The notes beneath the pieces are model-generated. The model was not told the DNA's origin and did not search any database. It was given only the letters and a program-made list of their open reading frames with translations. The position numbers were made by a program, and so were the translations under genes. A stretch of 64,000 nt of DNA from Bdellovibrio bacteriovorus W (GTDB lineage: Bacteria; Bdellovibrionota; Bdellovibrionia; Bdellovibrionales; Bdellovibrionaceae). The stretch is from positions 2,604,001-2,668,000 of the forward strand of contig CP002190.1 of NCBI GenBank assembly GCA_000525675.1. Direction: 5' to 3'. The number at the start of each line of letters is the position of its first letter. The stretch's first letter is position 1. Of this stretch, positions 10,015-24,259 are shown piece by piece.

Positions 10015-11295
10015 ATGTTGCGACCCCGATTTAAAACTATTTTAAAATCTTTGACAATACTTCTGACGCTAATGATCATCACCGGATTTGCCGTGTCAGT
10101 TGGAGCATTCATAACCTTGGAAAAAGAACTTGTGAGCAAGTTGGATTCCAAAAAGTTTCTTGTTCCTACAGAGTTCTATTCAGCACCGCCTATATTCTAT
10201 TCTCAGAGTGCTACGACCCTCGACAATATTCAAAGTTACTTAAAGGTCCTGAGCTATCGCCAAAGAGAGTCGGATCAACGCCTGCTTCCTGGCGATTACC
10301 TCATTGCAGGCAAAGAAGAGTGTACTTCTCGCTTTTCTTTACAGCTGGATGAGAATATCACCCACTGTTTAGCTTGGGTCACCAATGAGTACTCCCCCGA
10401 AAATGCGGACCGGAATATCCAACTTGCCCTTTTTGCTGGTGATCACTTTCTTGCGCAAACCTTAAAAGGAAAACCCTTTCAAGACTCGAACTCCTTAACC
10501 GGAGAAGCAAAGCTGATTGCGCAATACATTGATTCAGAGCCACTTTTGCAAAAAACTGTCAACCTTGGACAGGTCCCCTCTCAATGCCTCAACGCCATTC
10601 TCTCTATCGAGGATGCCCAGTTCCTAGAGCACGGCGGTGTCAGCATAAAAGGTATTGGTCGCGCCCTTTTAAAAAACTTAACTTCGGGTCGCAAAGCCCA
10701 AGGTGGAAGCACCATCACCCAACAGCTAGTTAAGAACTACTTCCTGACTAGCGAAAGAACACTCAAAAGAAAATTCAATGAGTTCATCATGTCTATTCTT
10801 TTGGAAGCACGTTTTTCAAAAGATGAAATCCTTGAGACTTACCTCAATATTATCTACATGGGACAAAGTGGCTCATTTCAAGTTCGTGGGTACGGCGCCG
10901 CTGCTCAATATTATTTTGCTAAAAACATTGAAGATCTAAATCTGAGCGAGTGCTCTTTACTGGCGGCTATCGTTAACAGCCCTGGTTTATTTAATCCCTT
11001 TAAACGCCCCGAAAATGCCACTAAAAGACGTACTCTGGTTTTACAAAAAATGAATGAGCTTGGATATATTTCTGAAATAGAAATGTCCGATGCTAAAAAT
11101 CAATCCCTTCCGCAAGCCCCCCGCTCGATTGCTACAGAAACGGCTCCTTATTACTTGGATGCCGTTCGTAAACAGCTGATTGCCAATAAGATTTCTCCGG
11201 ATGGCCTAAAGATATACACGGGACTTGATATTGATGCACAAACTCAAGCCCAAGCAGCCGTGCGCGATCACTTAAGCCGTCTTGGAAAAAAATAA
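10015..11295 (+). CDS. mrcB: PBP1b-type bifunctional peptidoglycan synthase, N-terminal (glycosyltransferase) part, frameshifted
   Basis: The first 426 residues carry a membrane anchor (about residues 9-30), a UB2H-like region typical of PBP1b (FLVPTEFYSAPPIFY) and a GT51 transglycosylase domain. SIEDAQFLEHGG holds the catalytic Glu and GGSTITQQLVKN the second conserved motif. The frame stops at 11293-11295 directly after an A7 run (11286-11292). The transpeptidase domain continues in the +1 frame from 11282. Removing one A would give one protein of about 772 residues, the normal PBP1b length. The cause is either a real mutation or a homopolymer error. All GT51 motifs are intact, so this half could still fold. 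Confidence 0.85.
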   Translation: MLRPRFKTILKSLTILLTLMIITGFAVSVGAFITLEKELVSKLDSKKFLVPTEFYSAPPIFYSQSATTLDNIQSYLKVLSYRQRESDQRLLPGDYLIAGKEECTSRFSLQLDENITHCLAWVTNEYSPENADRNIQLALFAGDHFLAQTLKGKPFQDSNSLTGEAKLIAQYIDSEPLLQKTVNLGQVPSQCLNAILSIEDAQFLEHGGVSIKGIGRALLKNLTSGRKAQGGSTITQQLVKNYFLTSERTLKRKFNEFIMSILLEARFSKDEILETYLNIIYMGQSGSFQVRGYGAAAQYYFAKNIEDLNLSECSLLAAIVNSPGLFNPFKRPENATKRRTLVLQKMNELGYISEIEMSDAKNQSLPQAPRSIATETAPYYLDAVRKQLIANKISPDGLKIYTGLDIDAQTQAQAAVRDHLSRLGKK

Positions 11296-12334
11296 TAAAC
11301 ACATCGAAGGCCTGAAGAAAAAAGGACTTTCGCTTGAAGGTGTTTTACTTTCTGCCAATAACGACACAGGAATTGTCTCTGCTGTCGTGGGCGGTCGCGA
11401 CTTCCGTATGACTCAGTTTAATAGAGCTATAGATGGACATCGCCAGATCGGCTCTATTATGAAGCCCTTTGTTTTTTTAACCGCGCTCATTAACTCTGAT
11501 GAAGATGGTCAACCGTTTACCCCGATCACACTTCTGAACGATGAGAAGTTCACACATAAATACCAAGGACAGTCATGGAGTCCCGTTAATTATGGCGGAA
11601 AGTACTTCGGAACAGTTCCGATGTTTTATGCACTGAAGAACTCTTTGAATGCGGCAACGGCATCACTAGGTATTCAAGTCGGCCTAGGAAACATTGTCGA
11701 GGTCACTCAATCTATGGGGGTTTCTTCACCTCTCAAAAGCTTGCCAGCCATGACTTTGGGGGCTTTTGAAATGTACCCCGTTGAAGTTCTCAAGAGCTAT
11801 ATGGCGATGGCGAACTATGGTAAACGCCAAGAGATCAGCTTCATTCGTCGTGCGACAACGCAAGATAATGAAGAGGTCTTTACCCATGATGCCAAGGCCA
11901 CTCAGGTGATTGACCCAACAGCCACAGCAAGCCTTGTTTCTATGATGAGACAAACGATTCTCTCAGGCAGCGCCCGCTATGCAACACTGAATGGATTTAC
12001 GACACCGGCAGCAGGTAAAACAGGAACGACGAGTGATAATAAAGATGCTTGGTTTGCGGGTTTTACTCCGGCATTAACAACGGTCGTGTGGGTAGGATAT
12101 GACAACAACACTCCTCACAAACTCACAGGCGCTAGTGGTGCTGTGCCCGCTTGGACTCAATACATGAAGGCCATGGCAGCCCGTTATCCTTCGGTTGATT
12201 TTCCTTTAACAGAAAACTCAAAAGTGATCCGCTTAAATACAGAGACTCTCAAAGCGCTCAACGCCCTGAGAGACAATGATCCCCCTGAGGTAGAACTTGT
12301 TTTTGATAAACGACGTTTGCCTGCTGGATTTTAA
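11282..12334 (+). CDS. mrcB: PBP1b-type synthase, C-terminal (transpeptidase) part, frameshifted
   Basis: Continuation of the preceding gene in another frame. It contains the three penicillin-binding motifs in order: GSIMKP (SxxK, active-site Ser), NSLNAA (SxN) and GKTGTTSDNKDAWF (KTG). The apparent TTG start at 11282 lacks a ribosome-binding site and lies inside the upstream frame, so independent translation is unlikely unless by re-initiation at the 14-base overlap. Alone it would have no membrane anchor. The gene ends one base before the stop of the convergent MBL gene, with no room for a terminator. Confidence 0.83.
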   Translation: MEKNNKHIEGLKKKGLSLEGVLLSANNDTGIVSAVVGGRDFRMTQFNRAIDGHRQIGSIMKPFVFLTALINSDEDGQPFTPITLLNDEKFTHKYQGQSWSPVNYGGKYFGTVPMFYALKNSLNAATASLGIQVGLGNIVEVTQSMGVSSPLKSLPAMTLGAFEMYPVEVLKSYMAMANYGKRQEISFIRRATTQDNEEVFTHDAKATQVIDPTATASLVSMMRQTILSGSARYATLNGFTTPAAGKTGTTSDNKDAWFAGFTPALTTVVWVGYDNNTPHKLTGASGAVPAWTQYMKAMAARYPSVDFPLTENSKVIRLNTETLKALNALRDNDPPEVELVFDKRRLPAGF

Positions 12335-13631: not shown

Positions 13632-13776
13632 TCTGAAGGTATATTTCTGAACACACAATGATAAAATAAAGTTCTAACTCTACTGAGTGCATAAAGAATT
13701 TGGACAATACCTGTATTTAAGTGACAGCCTCCTCTTTACTTTGTTAAGTACTCCAATACTTTTTAAGGAGTCTATA

Positions 13777-15753
13777 ATGACAAAAGGATGGAGAAGCCTC
13801 TTAAGTGCGGTTGTGTTATCATTTGCGATCTTCACAACCTCTACACCAATTGCATCTGCAAAAGGTTTAGATGGATTAGCGCCTGCAAATCTTTTGGAAA
13901 AGATTAAAAAGGAAATTGCAAAACAAGAAATTGGGAGCTCTGTTTCTTTAGTCAACGCCGAAATCCTCAGTGGGCTGACAACTTCACTTCGCTACAAAAT
14001 TGAGTCTGAGCCCTCTTATATCGGCGGATACTACAACCGCATTGATAAATACTCTTTAAAAATCGACCTGCGCCCAGGCGACTTCATTGATGCTCTGGAC
14101 ACTCCAGTAGGAATCAACCTACAAAAAGGATCTGAGATCACTTTTGTTCGTCAGTTCAAAAGCCAAAAAGACTCTTTACTTTCTCTTCCTTACACTCCAG
14201 CGAATCTGCCATTCACTGCCGAGAAGGCTTTAGATAAACTCAACCCAGGGGACTTCGTTGCTTTTGAAGGACATCTTTCTTTAGTTGTTTCTATGGGCCA
14301 TAGCTTTTTCCAAGGCGTTTTAGATGCAGGCGCTTCGACGCATGCTCTGGTTTCTGGAAACTTCATGGTTCATATCTTCCGTATGGTTGATAACCAGGTG
14401 CGCGTAAAACTTATCGGTGTTCGCGGCAAAGGTATCGGAGCTGGTGCTGGTATTGAACTTGGTGAAGACCTTAGCTTCATCGGCCTCAACATCATTGATC
14501 GACGTATTGAAAAACTTCTGAACATCACTCCTCTTCGCTTAAATGCAGGCATCAACAATAAAGACGTCTTTATGCTAGACTATGTCTTTAACTTAAATGA
14601 CGCCCTGGCAAGAGAAGCTTACAATCAGCTTCTTCTATATAAAGTCCAACTCAAAGACGTTAAGATAGCCAACCCTTTTGCAACTCGCAAAGACTTGATG
14701 GATGAGTTGATGACAGATCTTAACTTAGTTGAAGAGCTGTCTCTTGAGGATGCTCAAATCCCAGCGCCTCTGCGCCGCGTACATCGCGTGTTTAAAGGTT
14801 CTACTGAAGTAGATACAAAAGAAAGCTCCATGCGCTTTGGTCTTAGCCTTTGGAAGTTCCAAGCAGGTCGCGCCTATGCAGAAAATAAAGTTCTGAACTA
14901 CGACAGCAGTGATCGCCAAGAGCACTTTCTATTGAACACGTTCTCTTCGTACAAAAAGACAAAAGTACTCTTTGGTCTTTTTGGTGAAGAGTCTTTAACG
15001 ACTTCCAATCTTTTATTTACCGCTGATCCAAACTGGAGTGCGGGTCGCTTTGTGACTTTAACGTCGAGCAATCAGATGAAGATGAAAGACGTTTCAGATC
15101 GCGATCTTCGCCGCATTCAAAAGACTGTCCTTGAAACTATTGGACACAAAGCCTATGCGGGCATCGACTGGACTCCCTGGACCTCGATCCCTGGAAAAAA
15201 GGTCAATGCTTACTTCAAGCAAGAAGTTTTCTTCAACCCTGAGGCTCTTATCGTTCTTCCTCACCTGAAAGCGGTCTCTTTAGCTGCTCGATTTGAACGG
15301 TATATAGAAAGAAAGGGCCGCCCTCAGGCGTCTGCACTCTTTGATCCCGGTCATACTGCGGGTTACTTTTTAGGTGGATGGATTCATGAGTTCAAAGGCG
15401 ACTTCAGAAAAATTGGTGAAAGCCTTGAAACCGTGATTCGCCAAGATAAGAGCATCGACGATCGTTACGAAGCCTTCGAAACTCTGCACAAAATCCCAGT
15501 ATGGCGCGAAAGAGGCATTGGCTTCCTGATGGACTTCTTCACGGAAGAACAACGCTCTAAAGTTCTTCGCTACGAACTTGTACTATCGGCTCAGGGTGTA
15601 ACCGGAGTGAACCACGTTTTCGGTAACTTCAAAGAAGAAAGACTTTACAAGTCATTGATGTATATCCAAAACATTATTCATAATCGATCTTTTGACCTGC
15701 GCATGTATGCAGACGAAAATGGAGAGCTCAGAACTCTTCAGCAAGCAAACTAA
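13777..15753 (+). CDS. Large exported protein of unknown function
   Basis: The 658-residue protein starts at ATG 13777 with TAAGGAG seven bases upstream; the in-frame ATG at 13687 is too far upstream and unlikely. Residues 1-29 form a signal peptide ending IASAKG. The body is mixed alpha/beta without membrane segments. A segment LNPGDFVAFEGHLSLVVSMGH near residue 145 loosely recalls NlpC/P60-like folds, but I cannot identify a catalytic triad. It is a monocistronic gene with its own strong terminator, which suggests a defined periplasmic or secreted product. Confidence 0.75.
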   Translation: MTKGWRSLLSAVVLSFAIFTTSTPIASAKGLDGLAPANLLEKIKKEIAKQEIGSSVSLVNAEILSGLTTSLRYKIESEPSYIGGYYNRIDKYSLKIDLRPGDFIDALDTPVGINLQKGSEITFVRQFKSQKDSLLSLPYTPANLPFTAEKALDKLNPGDFVAFEGHLSLVVSMGHSFFQGVLDAGASTHALVSGNFMVHIFRMVDNQVRVKLIGVRGKGIGAGAGIELGEDLSFIGLNIIDRRIEKLLNITPLRLNAGINNKDVFMLDYVFNLNDALAREAYNQLLLYKVQLKDVKIANPFATRKDLMDELMTDLNLVEELSLEDAQIPAPLRRVHRVFKGSTEVDTKESSMRFGLSLWKFQAGRAYAENKVLNYDSSDRQEHFLLNTFSSYKKTKVLFGLFGEESLTTSNLLFTADPNWSAGRFVTLTSSNQMKMKDVSDRDLRRIQKTVLETIGHKAYAGIDWTPWTSIPGKKVNAYFKQEVFFNPEALIVLPHLKAVSLAARFERYIERKGRPQASALFDPGHTAGYFLGGWIHEFKGDFRKIGESLETVIRQDKSIDDRYEAFETLHKIPVWRERGIGFLMDFFTEEQRSKVLRYELVLSAQGVTGVNHVFGNFKEERLYKSLMYIQNIIHNRSFDLRMYADENGELRTLQQAN

Positions 15754-15800: not shown

Positions 15801-15883
15801 GCGGCAAAACACTCCTTTACCAACTCCCCGAAGCGACGAACCTCTATCTAGAGTGTGAAATAGTTGCATTCTGTCCCCAGAAC

Positions 15884-15972: not shown

Positions 15973-17283
15973 ATGGAACATATATTGCAATCTGGTGATG
16001 TCATGGAAAGTCGTCGTTTTAAAGACATTGTAGCATTTAAGAGAGAGCAAAGCGCCCCGATGGCTTTCCATGCTCGCAATCTAGAGGTTGCCGAGATCTC
16101 CGAAGAGCTTTGGAATCTCTTAAAAAGCCGAGAGTCAAATCAAGAGGCCTATGCCGATCTTTTGGATTGGGAGTCTTCTGAAGCAGCTAATTCGGCTCTT
16201 TCTAGCGGTTTCGGCGAGGTGCGCAGTCTCACAATTAACGTCACACAGATCTGCAATTTAAAGTGTACTTATTGCGCTGCTGGGGGCGATGGAACCTATG
16301 GTTTTGCGCAGACGAAAATTGATGTCGAAAAAACACTTCCGCAACTAAAGTTCTTCATGGAGAGACTTCCTGAGAATAGCCGCTTCCATATCACTTTTTT
16401 GGGAGGCGAACCCTTGCTCTATCCTGAAGGCATTCGCGCCATTGGGGCTTATGTCTCTGAAGTCGGCAAAGATCGAAATCTTCGCGCTGAGTTCTCTATT
16501 GTGACCAATGGAACACTTCTCTCAGAGAAAAACCTTGAACTACTTTCGGAGATCAAAGCCAATATCACGATCAGCGTTGATGGCCCGTCTGCGATCAACG
16601 ATCGCCTGCGCCCAAGTAAAAATGGTCAATCTTCCACTGAGATGATCATCACTGGTCTTTCGTGCTTGCAAAAATATCGCAAAGACCTTGGATTCGTTCG
16701 AGTTCATGGTGTCTTTGGAAAAGACAATACCGAGATTTTAAAAGCCTATGATTTTTATGAGTCTTTAGGCGTTGATCAGTATGAATTTTCATTCTCTGTA
16801 GAAAGTTCTGATGAGGTGACAAACAAAAAATTCATCTCCGAAATGAATGCCATTGCAGCTCTTGCTTACGTCCGGGGCGGCGAAGCTGGAATTCGTAAGA
16901 TTAGTTTCTTTGATCAGCAGTTTTCTATATTAGATCGCCAAGTGCAGATTAAAAACCATTGCCCTGCTGGAAAGAACTTCTTGATGGTGGATGCAAAAAA
17001 CAACCTCTACACTTGCCCATGGGATGTTGGGAATCAATCTGCAAAAGTAGGCCAAGGGACTGAATTAGATGTCGTAAAACTCGAAGAGTATCGAGAAAAC
17101 TTGGTCGATAAAAACAACTGCCAAGAGTGCTGGGCAAGATTTATGTGCGGTGGTGGATGCATGTTCATTCATCAACAAGCAACTGGTAGCAAACACAAGA
17201 AAGATGCAAATTTCTGTGCGCGCACTAGAGAATTAATTAGTACTGCAATTTTTTATTATAAACTTAGCAGAGAATTTTGCTAA
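15973..17283 (+). CDS. Radical SAM/SPASM peptide-maturase-like protein
   Basis: About 437 residues. The N-terminal 75 residues (RRFKDIVAFKREQ to LLDWES) resemble the peptide-recognition region found in RiPP maturases. ICNLKCTYCAAGG near residue 94 is the CxxxCxxC radical SAM motif, followed by FLGGEPL and a TIM-barrel core. The C-terminus holds a SPASM domain: HCPAG, YTCPW, then CQECWARFMCGGGC (C-x2-C-x5-C-x3-C) and a last FCAR, enough for two auxiliary Fe-S clusters. SPASM enzymes mostly modify small ribosomal peptides, and a 36-residue ORF begins 13 bases after the stop. The start is unsure: ATG 15973, 16003 or 16060. No peptide exporter lies nearby. Confidence 0.85.
   Translation: MEHILQSGDVMESRRFKDIVAFKREQSAPMAFHARNLEVAEISEELWNLLKSRESNQEAYADLLDWESSEAANSALSSGFGEVRSLTINVTQICNLKCTYCAAGGDGTYGFAQTKIDVEKTLPQLKFFMERLPENSRFHITFLGGEPLLYPEGIRAIGAYVSEVGKDRNLRAEFSIVTNGTLLSEKNLELLSEIKANITISVDGPSAINDRLRPSKNGQSSTEMIITGLSCLQKYRKDLGFVRVHGVFGKDNTEILKAYDFYESLGVDQYEFSFSVESSDEVTNKKFISEMNAIAALAYVRGGEAGIRKISFFDQQFSILDRQVQIKNHCPAGKNFLMVDAKNNLYTCPWDVGNQSAKVGQGTELDVVKLEEYRENLVDKNNCQECWARFMCGGGCMFIHQQATGSKHKKDANFCARTRELISTAIFYYKLSREFC
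15974..15988 (+). promoter_or_regulatory. Candidate sigma-54 (-24/-12) promoter
   Basis: TGGAACATATATTGC matches the consensus TGGCAC-N5-TTGC at all but one position and has the required GG-N10-GC spacing. Predicted transcription would begin near base 16000, only a few bases before the ATG at 16003. The operon would then be nearly leaderless or start at the ATG at 16060. If translation starts at 15973 the motif would be inside the gene, so it needs testing. Confidence 0.45.
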
Positions 17284-17296
17284 AAGGAGTGCCAAG

Positions 17297-17407
17297 ATGT
17301 CACATATTAAAAAGGTAAAACCTGCTCTCACAAAGCCTTCAGCACCCAATCTCTTCGGAGGAAATGGTGGTAATGGAACTGGTGAAGGTTGTATTCCAAT
17401 AAGATAG
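17297..17407 (+). CDS. Small Gly/Asn-rich peptide, candidate RiPP precursor
   Basis: A 36-codon ORF preceded by AAAAGGAG at optimal spacing, 13 bases after the radical-SAM stop and seven bases before the kinase ATG. It begins MSHIKKVKPALTKPSAPNLF, a basic Lys/Pro leader-like part, and continues GGNGGNGTGEGCIPIR, a Gly/Asn-rich core with the only Cys at position 32. This layout (strong ribosome site, tiny peptide, adjacent SPASM maturase) is typical of ribosomally made, post-translationally modified peptides. I do not recognise the family, and the type of modification cannot be told from sequence; a thioether at Cys32 is one option. Confidence 0.72.
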   Translation: MSHIKKVKPALTKPSAPNLFGGNGGNGTGEGCIPIR

Positions 17408-17414
17408 GTAGTTC

Positions 17415-19286
17415 ATGTCAGAAAACGAAAGCAAAGCCACCTCCCCTTCCACAAATAGGAAGTTAAGATTTCTATTGCTGCGAGTTCTTTTCGCGGCGGG
17501 CTTTGCTTTTCTGATGACCCAGATCAATCTGGAGTATGTCGAATCTTACCTCTACGATCTTCGTTTACGCTCAAAACCCTTCGATCGCACTGCCGACAAT
17601 ATTGAGCTCATCTATATCACTCCGAAAACTGTTCAAGATTATAAGGGCTGGCCTTCAGCCGATGATCAAGAGTTGCTCCTCAAACGACTTCTTGAGGCGG
17701 GTGCTTCGACTGTTATTTATGATTTTAACTTAAATGAAGTGCCTGGCTCTATTGATGAAAAAAACCTTTGGGAAGGAACCATTGTCGATGCGGCCTCAGT
17801 GTTTGTCGCCGGCAGAGTTACTCCCCTTAAGGGAGAAGAGGATTCTTTATTCCTGCCAGATCCACTAGAGAAAATCTCTTTGTATCCAGCTCCCAAGACG
17901 ACAGATCTTGTGAACTTCGCAAAAGACGGCGTCACTCGTCGTATGATTTTAACGTATCAAGGTCGCCCTCTGCTGCCCCTTCGAGTGGCCGGATTATATA
18001 ATCCAGAAATCTTAGACATTCAAAAAGTGCGCGGTCGATTTGATTTTTACGGTACAGACCAAGCCTATATTGATTTTCATAAAGCCCGTACTTTCCCCTC
18101 TGTTGAATTCACAGAGGCTTTTCAGGCAGAAAATCTTAAACGCTTTAAAGATAAAATCGTGATTCTAGGTTCCGATCTTGGAATGGATGAATCTGAATAC
18201 ATTATGAGCCCCTTTAACCGCGAGGTCATGGCGCTCACTCGTATTGAGTTACTTGCTAATACTATTGATACATTGATTCGCAACTCAGGCCCGATTCGCC
18301 TACCGACATCAGTAGCTTGGGCACTAATTCTTCTGGCTTCTCTATTAACGACTCATATCGTTTTAACTTTAAAACCAACAAAAGGGCTCTTGATTCTTTT
18401 AATCACCCTTGTGGGTTTTGCGTTTATCTGCACAATGATCTTCTGGGGTGCGGGTCTTTGGGTTCCGATGGCGGGCCCTATTCTTACGATTCTACTTTGT
18501 TATTACTTCTTTATTCCTTACCGCTTAATCATCGAGCATCGACGTAGCTGGGAGTACTTTCAAAAGAATCGCCTCTTAAGCCAAGTCGAAGAACTTAAGT
18601 CGAACTTTATCTCTATGATGTCCCATGATCTTAAGACCCCGATTGCGCGCATTCAGGGAATGACTGATATGATATTGGCTGACAAGGTTCAATTGAGCTC
18701 TCAGCAGCGCGAGGCCGTGGATACGATTAAGAGCTCTTCAGATGACCTCCTAAAATTTATCAGCGCGATTTTAAGTTATGGAAAGATCGAAAGCGAAGGC
18801 GTTCAGCTTCGCTTGCAAAGTCGTGATATCAATACACTGCTGGAAGAAGTCATCCGCAAGCATGAGTTCTTAGCAAAGCTAAAACGCATTCAGGTCATTT
18901 CTGAACTGGAACCTCTTTTTCCGGTTTCTGTCGACGCGGATTTAATGAAACAAGTCCTTTCAAACTTGGTGGAAAACGCGATTAAGTACAGCCCTGAAGA
19001 CACCAAGATCATGGTGTCTAGCGAGGAAACCCCGACCCACGTGGTGATTCAAGTGGCCGATCAGGGACCGGGTATTCCTACAGATGAACTGCAAAATATT
19101 TTCATGAAATTCTTCCGCTCTAAGAATACTAAAAGCTCTCCTATCAAAGGATCGGGTTTGGGCCTTTATTTGGCTAAATATTTCACGGAATTACATGGTG
19201 GAAGGATCTTTGTAGAATCTTCCCATGGTAAAGGCTGCACTTTTACGGTAGAACTACCCATCGAACAAGGAGGCACACATGCTTAG
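17415..19286 (+). CDS. CHASE2-type sensor histidine kinase
   Basis: The 623-residue protein has an N-terminal transmembrane helix (about residues 17-35) and a periplasmic region of about 250 residues with CHASE2 features (YDLRLRSKP, ADNIELIYITPKTVQDYKGWP, FKDKIVILGSDLGMDES). Three transmembrane helices follow (about 296-370), then a cytoplasmic kinase. MSHDLKTPIARI is the phospho-acceptor His box, NLVENAIKYS the N box, VADQGPGIP G1 and GSGLGLYLAK G2. It starts seven bases after the small peptide ORF and overlaps the following response regulator by eight bases. It is probably the sensor of this operon. The ligand is unknown; the modified peptide is an attractive but untested candidate. Confidence 0.92.
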   Translation: MSENESKATSPSTNRKLRFLLLRVLFAAGFAFLMTQINLEYVESYLYDLRLRSKPFDRTADNIELIYITPKTVQDYKGWPSADDQELLLKRLLEAGASTVIYDFNLNEVPGSIDEKNLWEGTIVDAASVFVAGRVTPLKGEEDSLFLPDPLEKISLYPAPKTTDLVNFAKDGVTRRMILTYQGRPLLPLRVAGLYNPEILDIQKVRGRFDFYGTDQAYIDFHKARTFPSVEFTEAFQAENLKRFKDKIVILGSDLGMDESEYIMSPFNREVMALTRIELLANTIDTLIRNSGPIRLPTSVAWALILLASLLTTHIVLTLKPTKGLLILLITLVGFAFICTMIFWGAGLWVPMAGPILTILLCYYFFIPYRLIIEHRRSWEYFQKNRLLSQVEELKSNFISMMSHDLKTPIARIQGMTDMILADKVQLSSQQREAVDTIKSSSDDLLKFISAILSYGKIESEGVQLRLQSRDINTLLEEVIRKHEFLAKLKRIQVISELEPLFPVSVDADLMKQVLSNLVENAIKYSPEDTKIMVSSEETPTHVVIQVADQGPGIPTDELQNIFMKFFRSKNTKSSPIKGSGLGLYLAKYFTELHGGRIFVESSHGKGCTFTVELPIEQGGTHA

Positions 19287-20790
19287 AGTTTTGGTTGTTG
19301 ATGACGATCAGGGCTTAAGACTGTCGGTCAAATCGACTCTTTCTACTGCAAATCATTTTGAAGTGGACGAAGCTTTTGATGGGGTAAATGCACTTGAGAA
19401 AATCAAGGCCTCAGAACAAAAGTATGACTTAGTCATTCTTGATGTCGATATGCCACGCATGAACGGCCTTGAAGCCCTTCGCCAGATTAAAGAATTTGAT
19501 CCTGGAATTATCGTTATCATCATGACAGCCCATGCAACTTTAAACGATGCGATTCAAGCCGTTAAAGATGGTGCTTATAATTACCTACAAAAGCCAGTCG
19601 CTGGTGATGACCTTCTAACTCTGATTGATAAGGCCGTTACTGCACATAATTTGATCTCTAATGCCGCTGCTTCTGCGCCAGTGATGGTAGAAGCAGGTCG
19701 TAAAATCATTGGCCACACTTCTCAAATGCAAAAGGTGTTTAATATCATTCACCGTCTTGCAAAAGTAGACACGCCTGTGCTGATTCGTGGTTCTTCTGGA
19801 ACAGGTAAAGAGCTTGTTGCTAAAGCCATCCACTACAACTCTGCTCGCAAAGATGAAAAATTTGTTGCGATCAACTGTTCGGCGATTCCAGAAAACCTTT
19901 TTGAATCTGAGCTTTTCGGTCACGAAAAGGGTTCCTTCACAGGAGCTGATCAAAGAAAAATTGGAAAGTTTCAGTTTGCTGAAGGTGGAACTTTGTTTTT
20001 AGATGAAGTCGGCGACATGCCACAACTCATGCAAGTAAAGATCTTGCGTGTTTTGCAAGAAAAAGTCTTCACTCCAGTAGGCTCTAACCGCGAGTTCCCA
20101 ACCAACGTGCGCATTATCGCAGCGACAAACCGTCCTCTAGAAGAAATGATCAAAGTGGGTTCATTCCGTGAAGATCTTTTCTATCGCTTGAACGTCGTAC
20201 CTATATTCTTGCCAGCTTTAGCCGAAAGAAAGGACGACATGGAGCACATGGTGAATATCTTTATTAAGAAATTCAACGTTGCCCACGGTAAACGCATTAA
20301 CGGAATTTCCGCAGACGCGATGGCTGTTTTGAAAAAACATGAATGGCCTGGGAATATTCGTGAACTTGAGAACGTTATTGAACATGCTTTTGTTCTTGAG
20401 ACTTCAAACATCGTAACAATCGCTTCTCTTCCAGAGTCTTTGCTTCTAGCAACTGGTACGAATTTGATCGATATGCCATTAATGACAGAGTCGGCTCAAA
20501 CTCTTTCTGAAAATGTGAGTGCCGCAGTTTCTGCTCACGCACACCTTCCAGAGACAGGTATGTCAGCAGATCTTGAAGATGGTGATGATTTAGAAGCAGG
20601 TGATTTCTCTGGCGAGACTTTAGATTTTAATGCCGAGAAAGAAGCTTTTGAAAAAGAGTTTATCATCAAGGCTCTTAAGACTTTCAGAGGTCGCATCAAT
20701 CAGACTGCACTTCACGCCAATATTCCGAAGAAAACACTTCTTCGCAAGATTGAGAAGTACGGGATTGTGGCAAAAGATTACATCAACTAA
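19279..20790 (+). CDS. NtrC-family sigma-54-dependent response regulator
   Basis: 503 residues in the classic three-domain order. The receiver has the Asp acceptor in VILDVDMPRMNG (about residue 55). The AAA+ domain has Walker A RGSSGTGKE, the sigma-54 contact loop GSFTGAD (GAFTGA variant), Walker B GGTLFLDEVGD and the arginine-rich sensor region. A Fis-type helix-turn-helix lies at the end (INQTALHANIPKKTLLRKI), after an acidic linker of about 70 residues. As the cognate regulator of the upstream CHASE2 kinase it should activate sigma-54 promoters, possibly including the candidate site ahead of this operon. Confidence 0.94.
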   Translation: MLRVLVVDDDQGLRLSVKSTLSTANHFEVDEAFDGVNALEKIKASEQKYDLVILDVDMPRMNGLEALRQIKEFDPGIIVIIMTAHATLNDAIQAVKDGAYNYLQKPVAGDDLLTLIDKAVTAHNLISNAAASAPVMVEAGRKIIGHTSQMQKVFNIIHRLAKVDTPVLIRGSSGTGKELVAKAIHYNSARKDEKFVAINCSAIPENLFESELFGHEKGSFTGADQRKIGKFQFAEGGTLFLDEVGDMPQLMQVKILRVLQEKVFTPVGSNREFPTNVRIIAATNRPLEEMIKVGSFREDLFYRLNVVPIFLPALAERKDDMEHMVNIFIKKFNVAHGKRINGISADAMAVLKKHEWPGNIRELENVIEHAFVLETSNIVTIASLPESLLLATGTNLIDMPLMTESAQTLSENVSAAVSAHAHLPETGMSADLEDGDDLEAGDFSGETLDFNAEKEAFEKEFIIKALKTFRGRINQTALHANIPKKTLLRKIEKYGIVAKDYIN

Positions 20791-22452: not shown

Positions 22453-22974
22453 TTACTTTGGAATATTTTTTCGAAGTTTTCTCTGCAAGCTTTGGCGATG
22501 GAGTCCGAGTTTCTTGGCAGCCTGAGTGATGTTTCCGTCTGAGCTTTGCAAAACGTAATCAATATACTCACGCTCCATGCGCGCCAATGAGACGTGCTGA
22601 TCTAAGCTCTCTTCTTGCACAGGCTCATCACTGAATGCCGTGATGATCATCTCTGGATTTACGGGTTTACTAATAAAACTGTGAGCGCCTAATTGCATTG
22701 CCTTCACTGCAGAAGCCACACTGCCAAAACCACTCATCATAACAATCTTTAATTCTGGAAACTTTTTTCTTAAGTCAGCAATCAAATTCATGCTTGTCTC
22801 TGAGCCCACGCGCAAATCAACCAAGGCCCAATCAAACAGGGGAAGACTCTCAATCGAAGGAAGTTGCGCATAGGCTGTCACATGAACACCGCGCTCTTCA
22901 AGTTCCTCAGTAAGAACTTCGCGCAAGCCACTATCATCTTCGATCAGTAATAATTTTTTACCTTGAACCGTCAT
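22453..22974 (-). CDS. RegA/PrrA/ActR-like response regulator
   Basis: 173 residues: a receiver domain (LLIEDDSG acidic pocket, acceptor Asp in WALVDLRVG, SGFGSVASAVKAM, Lys in ISKPV) joined directly to a short Fis-type helix-turn-helix (GNITQAAKKLGLHRQSLQRKLRK). There is no AAA+ domain. This compact form and the LHRxSLQRKL text match the RegA/PrrA/ActR family, which controls respiration and redox genes. It overlaps the kinase gene by 17 bases. Assignment to the RegA branch is by motif resemblance. Confidence 0.85.
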   Translation of the reverse strand: MTVQGKKLLLIEDDSGLREVLTEELEERGVHVTAYAQLPSIESLPLFDWALVDLRVGSETSMNLIADLRKKFPELKIVMMSGFGSVASAVKAMQLGAHSFISKPVNPEMIITAFSDEPVQEESLDQHVSLARMEREYIDYVLQSSDGNITQAAKKLGLHRQSLQRKLRKNIPK

Positions 22975-24259
22975 TTTGTTCCTCCGGCAAAGTTATTTGC
23001 GCTGTAGCACCACGCGATTGATTATTAAAAATTCTAAAGGCTCCGCCAGAAGCTTGTGCCATCATTCCCGCTGAGTAGAGGCCAAGCCCGTTCCCATGAA
23101 CCTTTGATGTTACAAAGGGCTCGCCCAGACGAGACAACATCTCTTCACTAAGCCCTGCCCCTTGATCCACAACCTCAATCACCACTTCATTTTCTTTTTT
23201 ATAAAGTCGCACACTAATTTTGGAACTTTCATCCCCAGCTTCTAAAGCATTATCCAAGAGATCAAAAAACGTCTGAGAAAATGCAAGAAGTTGAATGCGA
23301 CAAACAAGCGGGCTTTCAATCAATAGGCGCTCTACAGAGATTTGATTCTCTTTTTCCCAGACGTCTAAGAGCTCTGAAAGAACTTTTTGAATTTCTACGG
23401 ATTGAAGCTCTGTAGTGGCAGACCGAGAAAATACAGAGGCCATGTGGCGAAAAACTTTAACACACTCTGCTAGTGAAACTTCAGCTTTTACAAACTCTTC
23501 CTTTGCCTCGGCCACATTGAAGTCGAGTTTTCGGATTCCTCTTTCCATTCGCAGGTTTAAGGAATTCATCGGCGTTGCGAGTTGGTGAGAAAAACCTGCC
23601 GTCAAAGCTCCTAGGGCCTTCAGGCGATCGGCTTGGTGCTGTTGATTCTGCAGAGCCCGAATGCGCAATTCGTTTTTATGAAGAAGATGAGAAAAGTAGT
23701 AACTCACAAACCACGAACCGGCGATAAGAACCCACTGGGACATAAATGGAAGAATCATTTCATCCACGTGTTTTCCCATACGCACTGAAACCTCCATATA
23801 GGTTTCAAATTGCAGAAGTCCCAAGAGAAGCATCAATACAATTCCAAAAAGATAGGTATAGCGCTTCTGTAAAAGCATCCCACCTAAGAAGGCATGAACA
23901 CAGAGAATACTGGTGAATGGATTTAAGGCTGAACCACTGACGAATAAAATCCCCGCTGCCGCCAAGAGATCCACGGTCAGATGAACCAGAATGCTCTTCT
24001 GTTCAGACTTCACCTTCCAGATCGATTGCGACAAAATATTAAAGAAACTCAGAAGCAGTAAGACAGCGACAAAATAAGGAACTCGCTGGGGCTCTAGATA
24101 GTCCCACCTCAAAAGTGGCACCATCCCCAAAAGCAGGCAGACTATTGCTATCCAACGGAAGTGAATCAATCCAATCATGGTCTCTACATATCGAAGCTCC
24201 GGAATTGCCGCAACAAGTCTTTCGTGAGCGCAACTATAAGATGCATTTTCTCGCCTCAC
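22958..24259 (-). CDS. RegB/PrrB-like sensor histidine kinase
   Basis: 433 residues with about six transmembrane helices in the first 190. VSGSALNPFTSIL sits where RegB carries its quinone-sensing GGxxNPF motif. The kinase core has the His box GFSHQLATPMNSL, the N box FFDLLDNALEAG, G1 VVDQGAGLS and G2 GNGLGLYSAG. With the overlapping RegA-like regulator it forms a probable redox two-component system. The GTG start at 24259 has no strong ribosome site, and an ATG at about 24178 is an alternative that would remove 27 residues before the first helix. It is divergent from the zinc-uptake operon. Confidence 0.87.
   Translation of the reverse strand: MRRENASYSCAHERLVAAIPELRYVETMIGLIHFRWIAIVCLLLGMVPLLRWDYLEPQRVPYFVAVLLLLSFFNILSQSIWKVKSEQKSILVHLTVDLLAAAGILFVSGSALNPFTSILCVHAFLGGMLLQKRYTYLFGIVLMLLLGLLQFETYMEVSVRMGKHVDEMILPFMSQWVLIAGSWFVSYYFSHLLHKNELRIRALQNQQHQADRLKALGALTAGFSHQLATPMNSLNLRMERGIRKLDFNVAEAKEEFVKAEVSLAECVKVFRHMASVFSRSATTELQSVEIQKVLSELLDVWEKENQISVERLLIESPLVCRIQLLAFSQTFFDLLDNALEAGDESSKISVRLYKKENEVVIEVVDQGAGLSEEMLSRLGEPFVTSKVHGNGLGLYSAGMMAQASGGAFRIFNNQSRGATAQITLPEEQNDGSR

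Follow-up and report, generated by a model that had tools for sequence, protein, structure and literature searches.

The locus examined here raises the question of whether a frame of only 36 codons, located between a radical SAM/SPASM gene and a sensor kinase gene in Bdellovibrio bacteriovorus W, encodes the substrate of the neighbouring enzyme, and what such a peptide might be for. It was analysed within a window of 64,000 nucleotides, the whole stretch of DNA under study, taken from a genome of 3.0 Mb in a single contig. The combined evidence makes it probable that the frame encodes the precursor of an undescribed Bdellovibrionales RiPP family, with a CteB/PapB-like maturase and a sigma54-transcribed operon, and that the peptide is a probable signal or output of a sensor circuit.

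The probable precursor gene and its conservation

The small ORF starts with ATG and encodes 36 amino acids (MSHIKKVKPALTKPSAPNLFGGNGGNGTGEGCIPIR). A strong ribosome site (AAAAGGAG, 17282-17289) is located 7 nt 5' of the start codon, the SPASM stop (17283) precedes the peptide ATG by 13 nt, and 7 nt separate the peptide stop (17407) from the kinase ATG (17415). The frame, the ribosome site and both gaps had been put forward in the original prediction and were confirmed at their exact coordinates; the ORF is a real gene at the position listed in Table 1. The presumed counterpart in B. bacteriovorus HD100 is MTQQTHIKKIKPLKPKPSSTTKLAGPGGGTGEGCIPVR. The earlier remark that the peptide was not recognised as a known RiPP class was borne out in the NCBIfam and Pfam libraries, where no family was matched.

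Table 1. Elements of the maturase-peptide-kinase-regulator locus (positions in the window)
Feature	Position	Strand	Description
Candidate upstream activator box TAGTTGCATTCTGTCCC	15861..15877	+	Genus form TAGTTTCCTTTTGCCCC; kept 5' of the SPASM gene among the aligned members of the genus
Predicted sigma54-type -24/-12 promoter element TGGAACATATATTGCA	15974..15989	+	TGG-N8-TTGC[AT] match 5' of the maturase start
Radical SAM/SPASM peptide maturase, 426 aa	16003..17283	+	Radical_SAM Pfam match; N-terminal RRE-like domain, predicted at about residues 1-60
Probable RiPP precursor peptide, 36 aa	17297..17407	+	Leader SHIKKVKP, variable Gly/Asn linker, C-terminal EGCIPIR with the sole Cys
CHASE2-HisKA-HATPase sensor histidine kinase	17415..19286	+	Pfam CHASE2 (2e-20), HisKA, HATPase_c
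NtrC-type sigma54-activating response regulator	19279..20790	+	REC, Sigma54_activat, HTH_8; GSFTGA loop

Orthologues of the maturase were sought in 119 relatives; most genomes that gave a clear match over the full length contributed loci. A matching small ORF followed the SPASM orthologue in all 74 loci that were readable past the enzyme stop (three further loci end at a contig edge and are outside this number), with its start ranging from 83 bases before to 217 bases after the maturase stop. Four loci from a later independent scan (L173, L174, L176 and L185), which played no part in defining the peptide pattern, also carried the peptide, so that it was present in 78 of 78 readable maturase loci. 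A search for short ORFs beside orthologous SPASM genes had been proposed as a check of the substrate idea, and orthologous loci devoid of a conserved small ORF as the observation that would count against it; every readable locus has one. All 78 loci encode, together with a modifying enzyme, a small ORF with a conserved leader and core, as is characteristic of RiPP precursors.

The leader was of the H-I-K-K-V-K-P type (H-I-K-K-x-K-P) in the 74 loci, being degenerate in four, and 73 of the 74 peptides contained a single cysteine. The Lys/Pro-rich front and lone cysteine singled out in the original prediction are kept across orthologous loci. The residue before the cysteine was most commonly glycine (44/74), the cysteine was followed most often by Ile, Val or Leu and then Pro, and most tails stopped four to six residues past the cysteine. 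Cys-x-Pro was typical of the C-terminus; three of the 74 departed from it in the core (C-P-E in L059 and L060, C-E-I in L068). The four later loci all read MKH[IV]KK...CPE[RIL] and form, together with L059 and L060, a second subtype with a C-P-E core. The Gly/Asn-rich stretch, to which the original prediction had given weight, turned out to be limited to some species. We rejected the Gly/Asn tail as a general modification site, because the linker and its glycine content vary or vanish among orthologues while only the leader and the cysteine are conserved.

Short ORFs are frequent (139 were listed in 16 kb), and a chance frame that is not a gene might thus be suspected. The strict motif was, however, matched in 68 of the 74 real regions, compared to 4 of 740 block-shuffled controls and 0 of 74 reverse strands; such conservation already refutes a chance origin, the probability of which is practically nil. 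The 19 peptide pairs gave pooled values of 0.50 for pS and 0.13 for pN, and the resulting dN/dS-like ratio (pN/pS = 0.26) points to purifying selection on the peptide. The peptide profile found exactly one copy per genome wherever the match was clear, and no convincing match, hence no orphan peptide, in genomes lacking the maturase. One locus (L028:1238-1480, minus strand) contained two different tandem precursor copies behind one maturase. The Bdellovibrionales operon was also present in an entry titled 'MAG: Streptomyces griseus' (L150), a title that is probably a mislabel. Outside Bdellovibrionales, relatives of the maturase were only 26-31% identical, mostly over residues 73-386, a coverage as in sulfatase-maturase-like enzymes, and relatives were also present in Paenibacillus; no similar peptide was seen beside these distant relatives in the six loci inspected.

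The maturase and modelled docking of the leader

Conservation places the start of the SPASM gene at the ATG at 16003 and not at the first TTG (15931). The top NCBIfam model for its product was PapB (NF047865), with 180 bits against a cutoff of 340; the nif11-peptide, SCIFF and QhpD-type models ranked after it, and none scored above its cutoff (146.7 bits against 425 for the SCIFF maturase model). A profile built from 39 orthologues ranked CteB (5wgg) highest of the solved structures (1e-48), and the AlphaFold model of the maturase (mean pLDDT of 89.8) superposed best on the same structure (399 residues, 2.9 Å, Z 36.7, 22% identity). The CxxxCxxC cysteines of the SAM cluster (C84, C88 and C91) were invariant in the 39 orthologues, as were seven SPASM cysteines (C320, C338, C373, C376, C382, C386 and C405), from which two auxiliary clusters are predicted. 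Judged by profile and model, the enzyme is nearest to CteB and PapB, both RiPP enzymes that form thioether links from cysteine. For this reason, a cysteine thioether is the chemistry that we favour; the position of the residue accepting it is not fixed in the peptide sequences.

The superposition on CteB ran from residue 6, through the N-terminal strands and helices, and thus included the small N-terminal domain. In one orthologous locus (L042), the enzyme and the peptide are in one frame with a stop between them, and a natural fusion for modelling was obtained by translating this stop as an amino acid. Residues 481-490 of the fusion (HIKLVKPRPS) were modelled with a mean pLDDT of 90 and a strand at 482-484, compared to 56-67 for the linker before the leader and 36-51 for the core after it. 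The fourth strand of the N-terminal domain spanned residues 31-35 in the fusion, compared to the positions equivalent to 32-34 in the model of the lone enzyme. The contact partner of the leader was read from these strand lengths alone, and the fusion alignment contained nine fused rows; we infer that the leader may add a strand to the RRE-like domain. A leader-binding RRE at the N-terminus is a feature of the models only, namely the full-length superposition and the fusion. Taken together, the adjacency in 78 of 78 loci, the leader with its single cysteine, the purifying selection, the CteB-like enzyme and the fusion model strongly support the original proposal that the peptide is the substrate of the maturase.

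The operon and its predicted control

The gene order maturase-peptide-CHASE2 kinase-NtrC-type regulator is kept across Bdellovibrionales. The kinase was the next large gene wherever the contig extended to its position, and the regulator followed it in every locus of sufficient length except L066, in which the regulator was divergent upstream. In the window, the regulator gene overlaps the kinase stop by 8 bases, and the regulator is 60-87% identical across loci. The original prediction named the kinase only as the neighbour of the peptide gene, whereas all four genes belong to one conserved operon preceded by a sigma54-type promoter. Among genomes of the order whose DNA upstream of the kinase was readable, 18 contained the kinase-regulator pair but lacked the maturase, and in none of these was a peptide recognised before the kinase; in these other families, the pair has no need of the peptide. 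Contig ends truncated two further maturase-less loci (L127 and L138). With these two counted as negatives, at least seven changes of the maturase/peptide trait were needed on the kinase tree, indicating that enzyme and peptide are gained or lost jointly and always before the same kinase. When the neighbourhoods were checked with the window's own genes as queries, no conserved exporter or leader protease was recognised.

In 43 of 58 loci, the 150 bp preceding the SPASM gene contained a match to TGG-N8-TTGC[AT], compared to 0.013 expected per region, and a site of this type also preceded several maturase-less kinase loci. Sigma54 is encoded in the same genome as the window, and the combination of an AAA+ sigma54-interaction domain in the regulator with a predicted -24/-12 promoter is that of a sigma54-dependent two-component system. 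The position of the element predicts a transcript start about 3 bases before the maturase ATG. The maturase mRNA is possibly near-leaderless in this genus (15974-16003), while the peptide has its strong ribosome site. The candidate activator box lies about 100 bases further upstream of the sigma54 element. In five of the six genomes searched (G000, G006, G020, G018 and G009), its sole exact match was at this operon, and in the sixth (G016) the site carried one mismatch. No single perfect palindrome was common to all the regulatory dyads upstream. The box may be the binding site of the regulator, and its exact match at this operon alone in five genomes suggests a private self-regulating circuit. 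From its sequence, the operon is apparently a self-regulating unit, presumably controlled by its own regulator.

Further features were observed in the window. In several relatives (L031, L082 and L088 among them), though not in others, the maturase is immediately preceded by a homologue of a 688-aa ORF that lacks a Pfam match (13687-15753, plus strand). At 22453-24259 (minus strand), a sensor kinase is accompanied by a short response regulator with only a Fis-type HTH, a pair that we take to resemble the RegB/RegA (PrrB/PrrA) redox pairs. A penicillin-binding protein (Transgly followed by Transpeptidase) at 10015-12334 is split into two frames of 426 and 350 aa and forms a single open frame of 759-907 aa in five relatives; the split reflects either a broken gene or a sequencing error.

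Proposed function and alternative explanations

In the mechanism that we propose, the four genes (maturase, precursor, CHASE2 kinase and NtrC-type regulator) would form one sigma54-transcribed operon, and the phosphorylated regulator would switch on the sigma54 promoter, leading to production of the maturase and the precursor. The HIKKxKP leader would dock as a beta strand on the RRE-like domain of the adjacent maturase, which would then modify the C-terminal core around the sole cysteine (C-[I/V/L]-P), most likely through a thioether to a nearby residue. The leader would subsequently be removed by some protease, and the product would either feed back on the CHASE2 kinase or be the output of the circuit. 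The peptide would most likely serve this sensor circuit as a signal or an output, following the principle of agrBDCA or of nisin autoinduction.

The agrBDCA and nisin (NisRK) systems combine a processing enzyme, a small peptide, a sensor kinase and a response regulator in one self-regulated locus, and genes of the same kinds were found here in an operon of conserved order. They differ from the present locus in that a radical SAM enzyme takes the place of AgrB or the lanthionine synthase, a CHASE2 kinase and a sigma54 regulator are used, no exporter was noted and peptide sensing is only hypothetical. The streptococcal radical SAM RiPPs (streptide, NxxcA) likewise have a tiny precursor beside a SPASM enzyme under the control of a regulator; they possess a transporter, and their precursors are unrelated to the Bdellovibrionales peptide. 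NxxcA contains a single thioether from one cysteine, and streptide is under Rgg-type regulation (PMC8326336). The SCIFF ranthipeptides (CteA-CteB, ScfB) share the nearest solved maturase, with its N-terminal RRE-like domain and two auxiliary cluster sites, and a precursor conserved throughout a lineage; they have been reported in clostridial quorum sensing (cited in PMC8326336 and PMC8102284). In contrast, SCIFF contains six cysteines in about 45 residues and the Bdellovibrionales precursor one, sequence similarity between the precursors is not shown, the maturase scores under the SCIFF model cutoff, and the genes are linked to a CHASE2 kinase and a sigma54 regulator. PapA-PapB (freyrasin, a ranthipeptide) provides the best NCBIfam model of the maturase, although at a score well below its cutoff, and the repeated Cys-x3-Asp of PapA is impossible in a peptide with one cysteine. 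By these comparisons, the system lies outside SCIFF and PapB, and it may work like a single-crosslink RiPP in the gene order of agrBDCA.

A substantial chance must be given to the possibility that the modified peptide serves the circuit as effector instead of signal: the kinase would sense an envelope or prey-related cue, the regulator would turn on the RiPP and the peptide would act at another site (the envelope, the prey or the cell interior). This alternative concerns the signalling step only and leaves the assignment as a RiPP precursor unaffected. It agrees with the location of the sigma54 promoter and upstream box before maturase and peptide, with the order-wide conservation at one copy per genome and with the kinase-regulator pairs that exist alone, as the input need not be the peptide. 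However, no exporter or immunity gene was noticed among the genes of the operon, the strong conservation of the core is unlike diversifying toxins, and L066 keeps the kinase with the peptide although the regulator has moved away. We infer that kinase and peptide may act on each other: the missing exporter counts against a secreted signal, and the strict kinase linkage counts for some interplay between the two.

It is improbable that the peptide is a scaffold for an excised small redox or cofactor molecule, as in PQQ or mycofactocin. A short, order-wide, single-copy peptide adjoining a SPASM enzyme, with Cys-x-Pro conserved near its C-terminus, would suit such a function, but the linked genes are those of a kinase and a regulator instead of a peptidase, dehydrogenase or glycosyltransferase, none of which was seen. 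Even less credit is due to the idea that the maturase acts on another target and that the frame encodes an unmodified small regulatory protein or serves the kinase gene as a translational leader. The location directly 5' of the kinase with a strong ribosome site would fit this explanation, yet the low pN/pS indicates that the amino acids are conserved, not the position alone, the peptide is missing where the maturase is missing and the kinase still present, and the enzyme model places the leader.

We regard it as very likely that the peptide is a conserved modified peptide working with its own signalling circuit. The open-access literature, which leaves most subscription journals uncovered, yielded no report joining Bdellovibrio with SPASM or this operon, and the B. 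bacteriovorus transposon and proteome papers do not mention the locus in their searchable text. CHASE2 is an extracytoplasmic domain. The ligands of CHASE2 sensor domains have been stated to be unknown (PMC10581220, PMC5192318). That the radical-SAM-modified peptide is the natural ligand of the CHASE2 kinase, the first for this orphan domain, in an Agr-like, sigma54-driven autoinducing RiPP circuit across Bdellovibrionales, is a tentative and rather doubtful extension of the preferred reading. The finding adds a probable lineage-wide radical SAM peptide family that is uncovered by the NCBIfam and Pfam libraries checked. In addition, the model predator Bdellovibrio bacteriovorus and the order to which it belongs now offer a CHASE2 sensor with a genetic link to a single small peptide that is probably crosslinked; a peptide of 36 residues, one enzyme and one promoter are enough to put the question of the CHASE2 ligand to the test.
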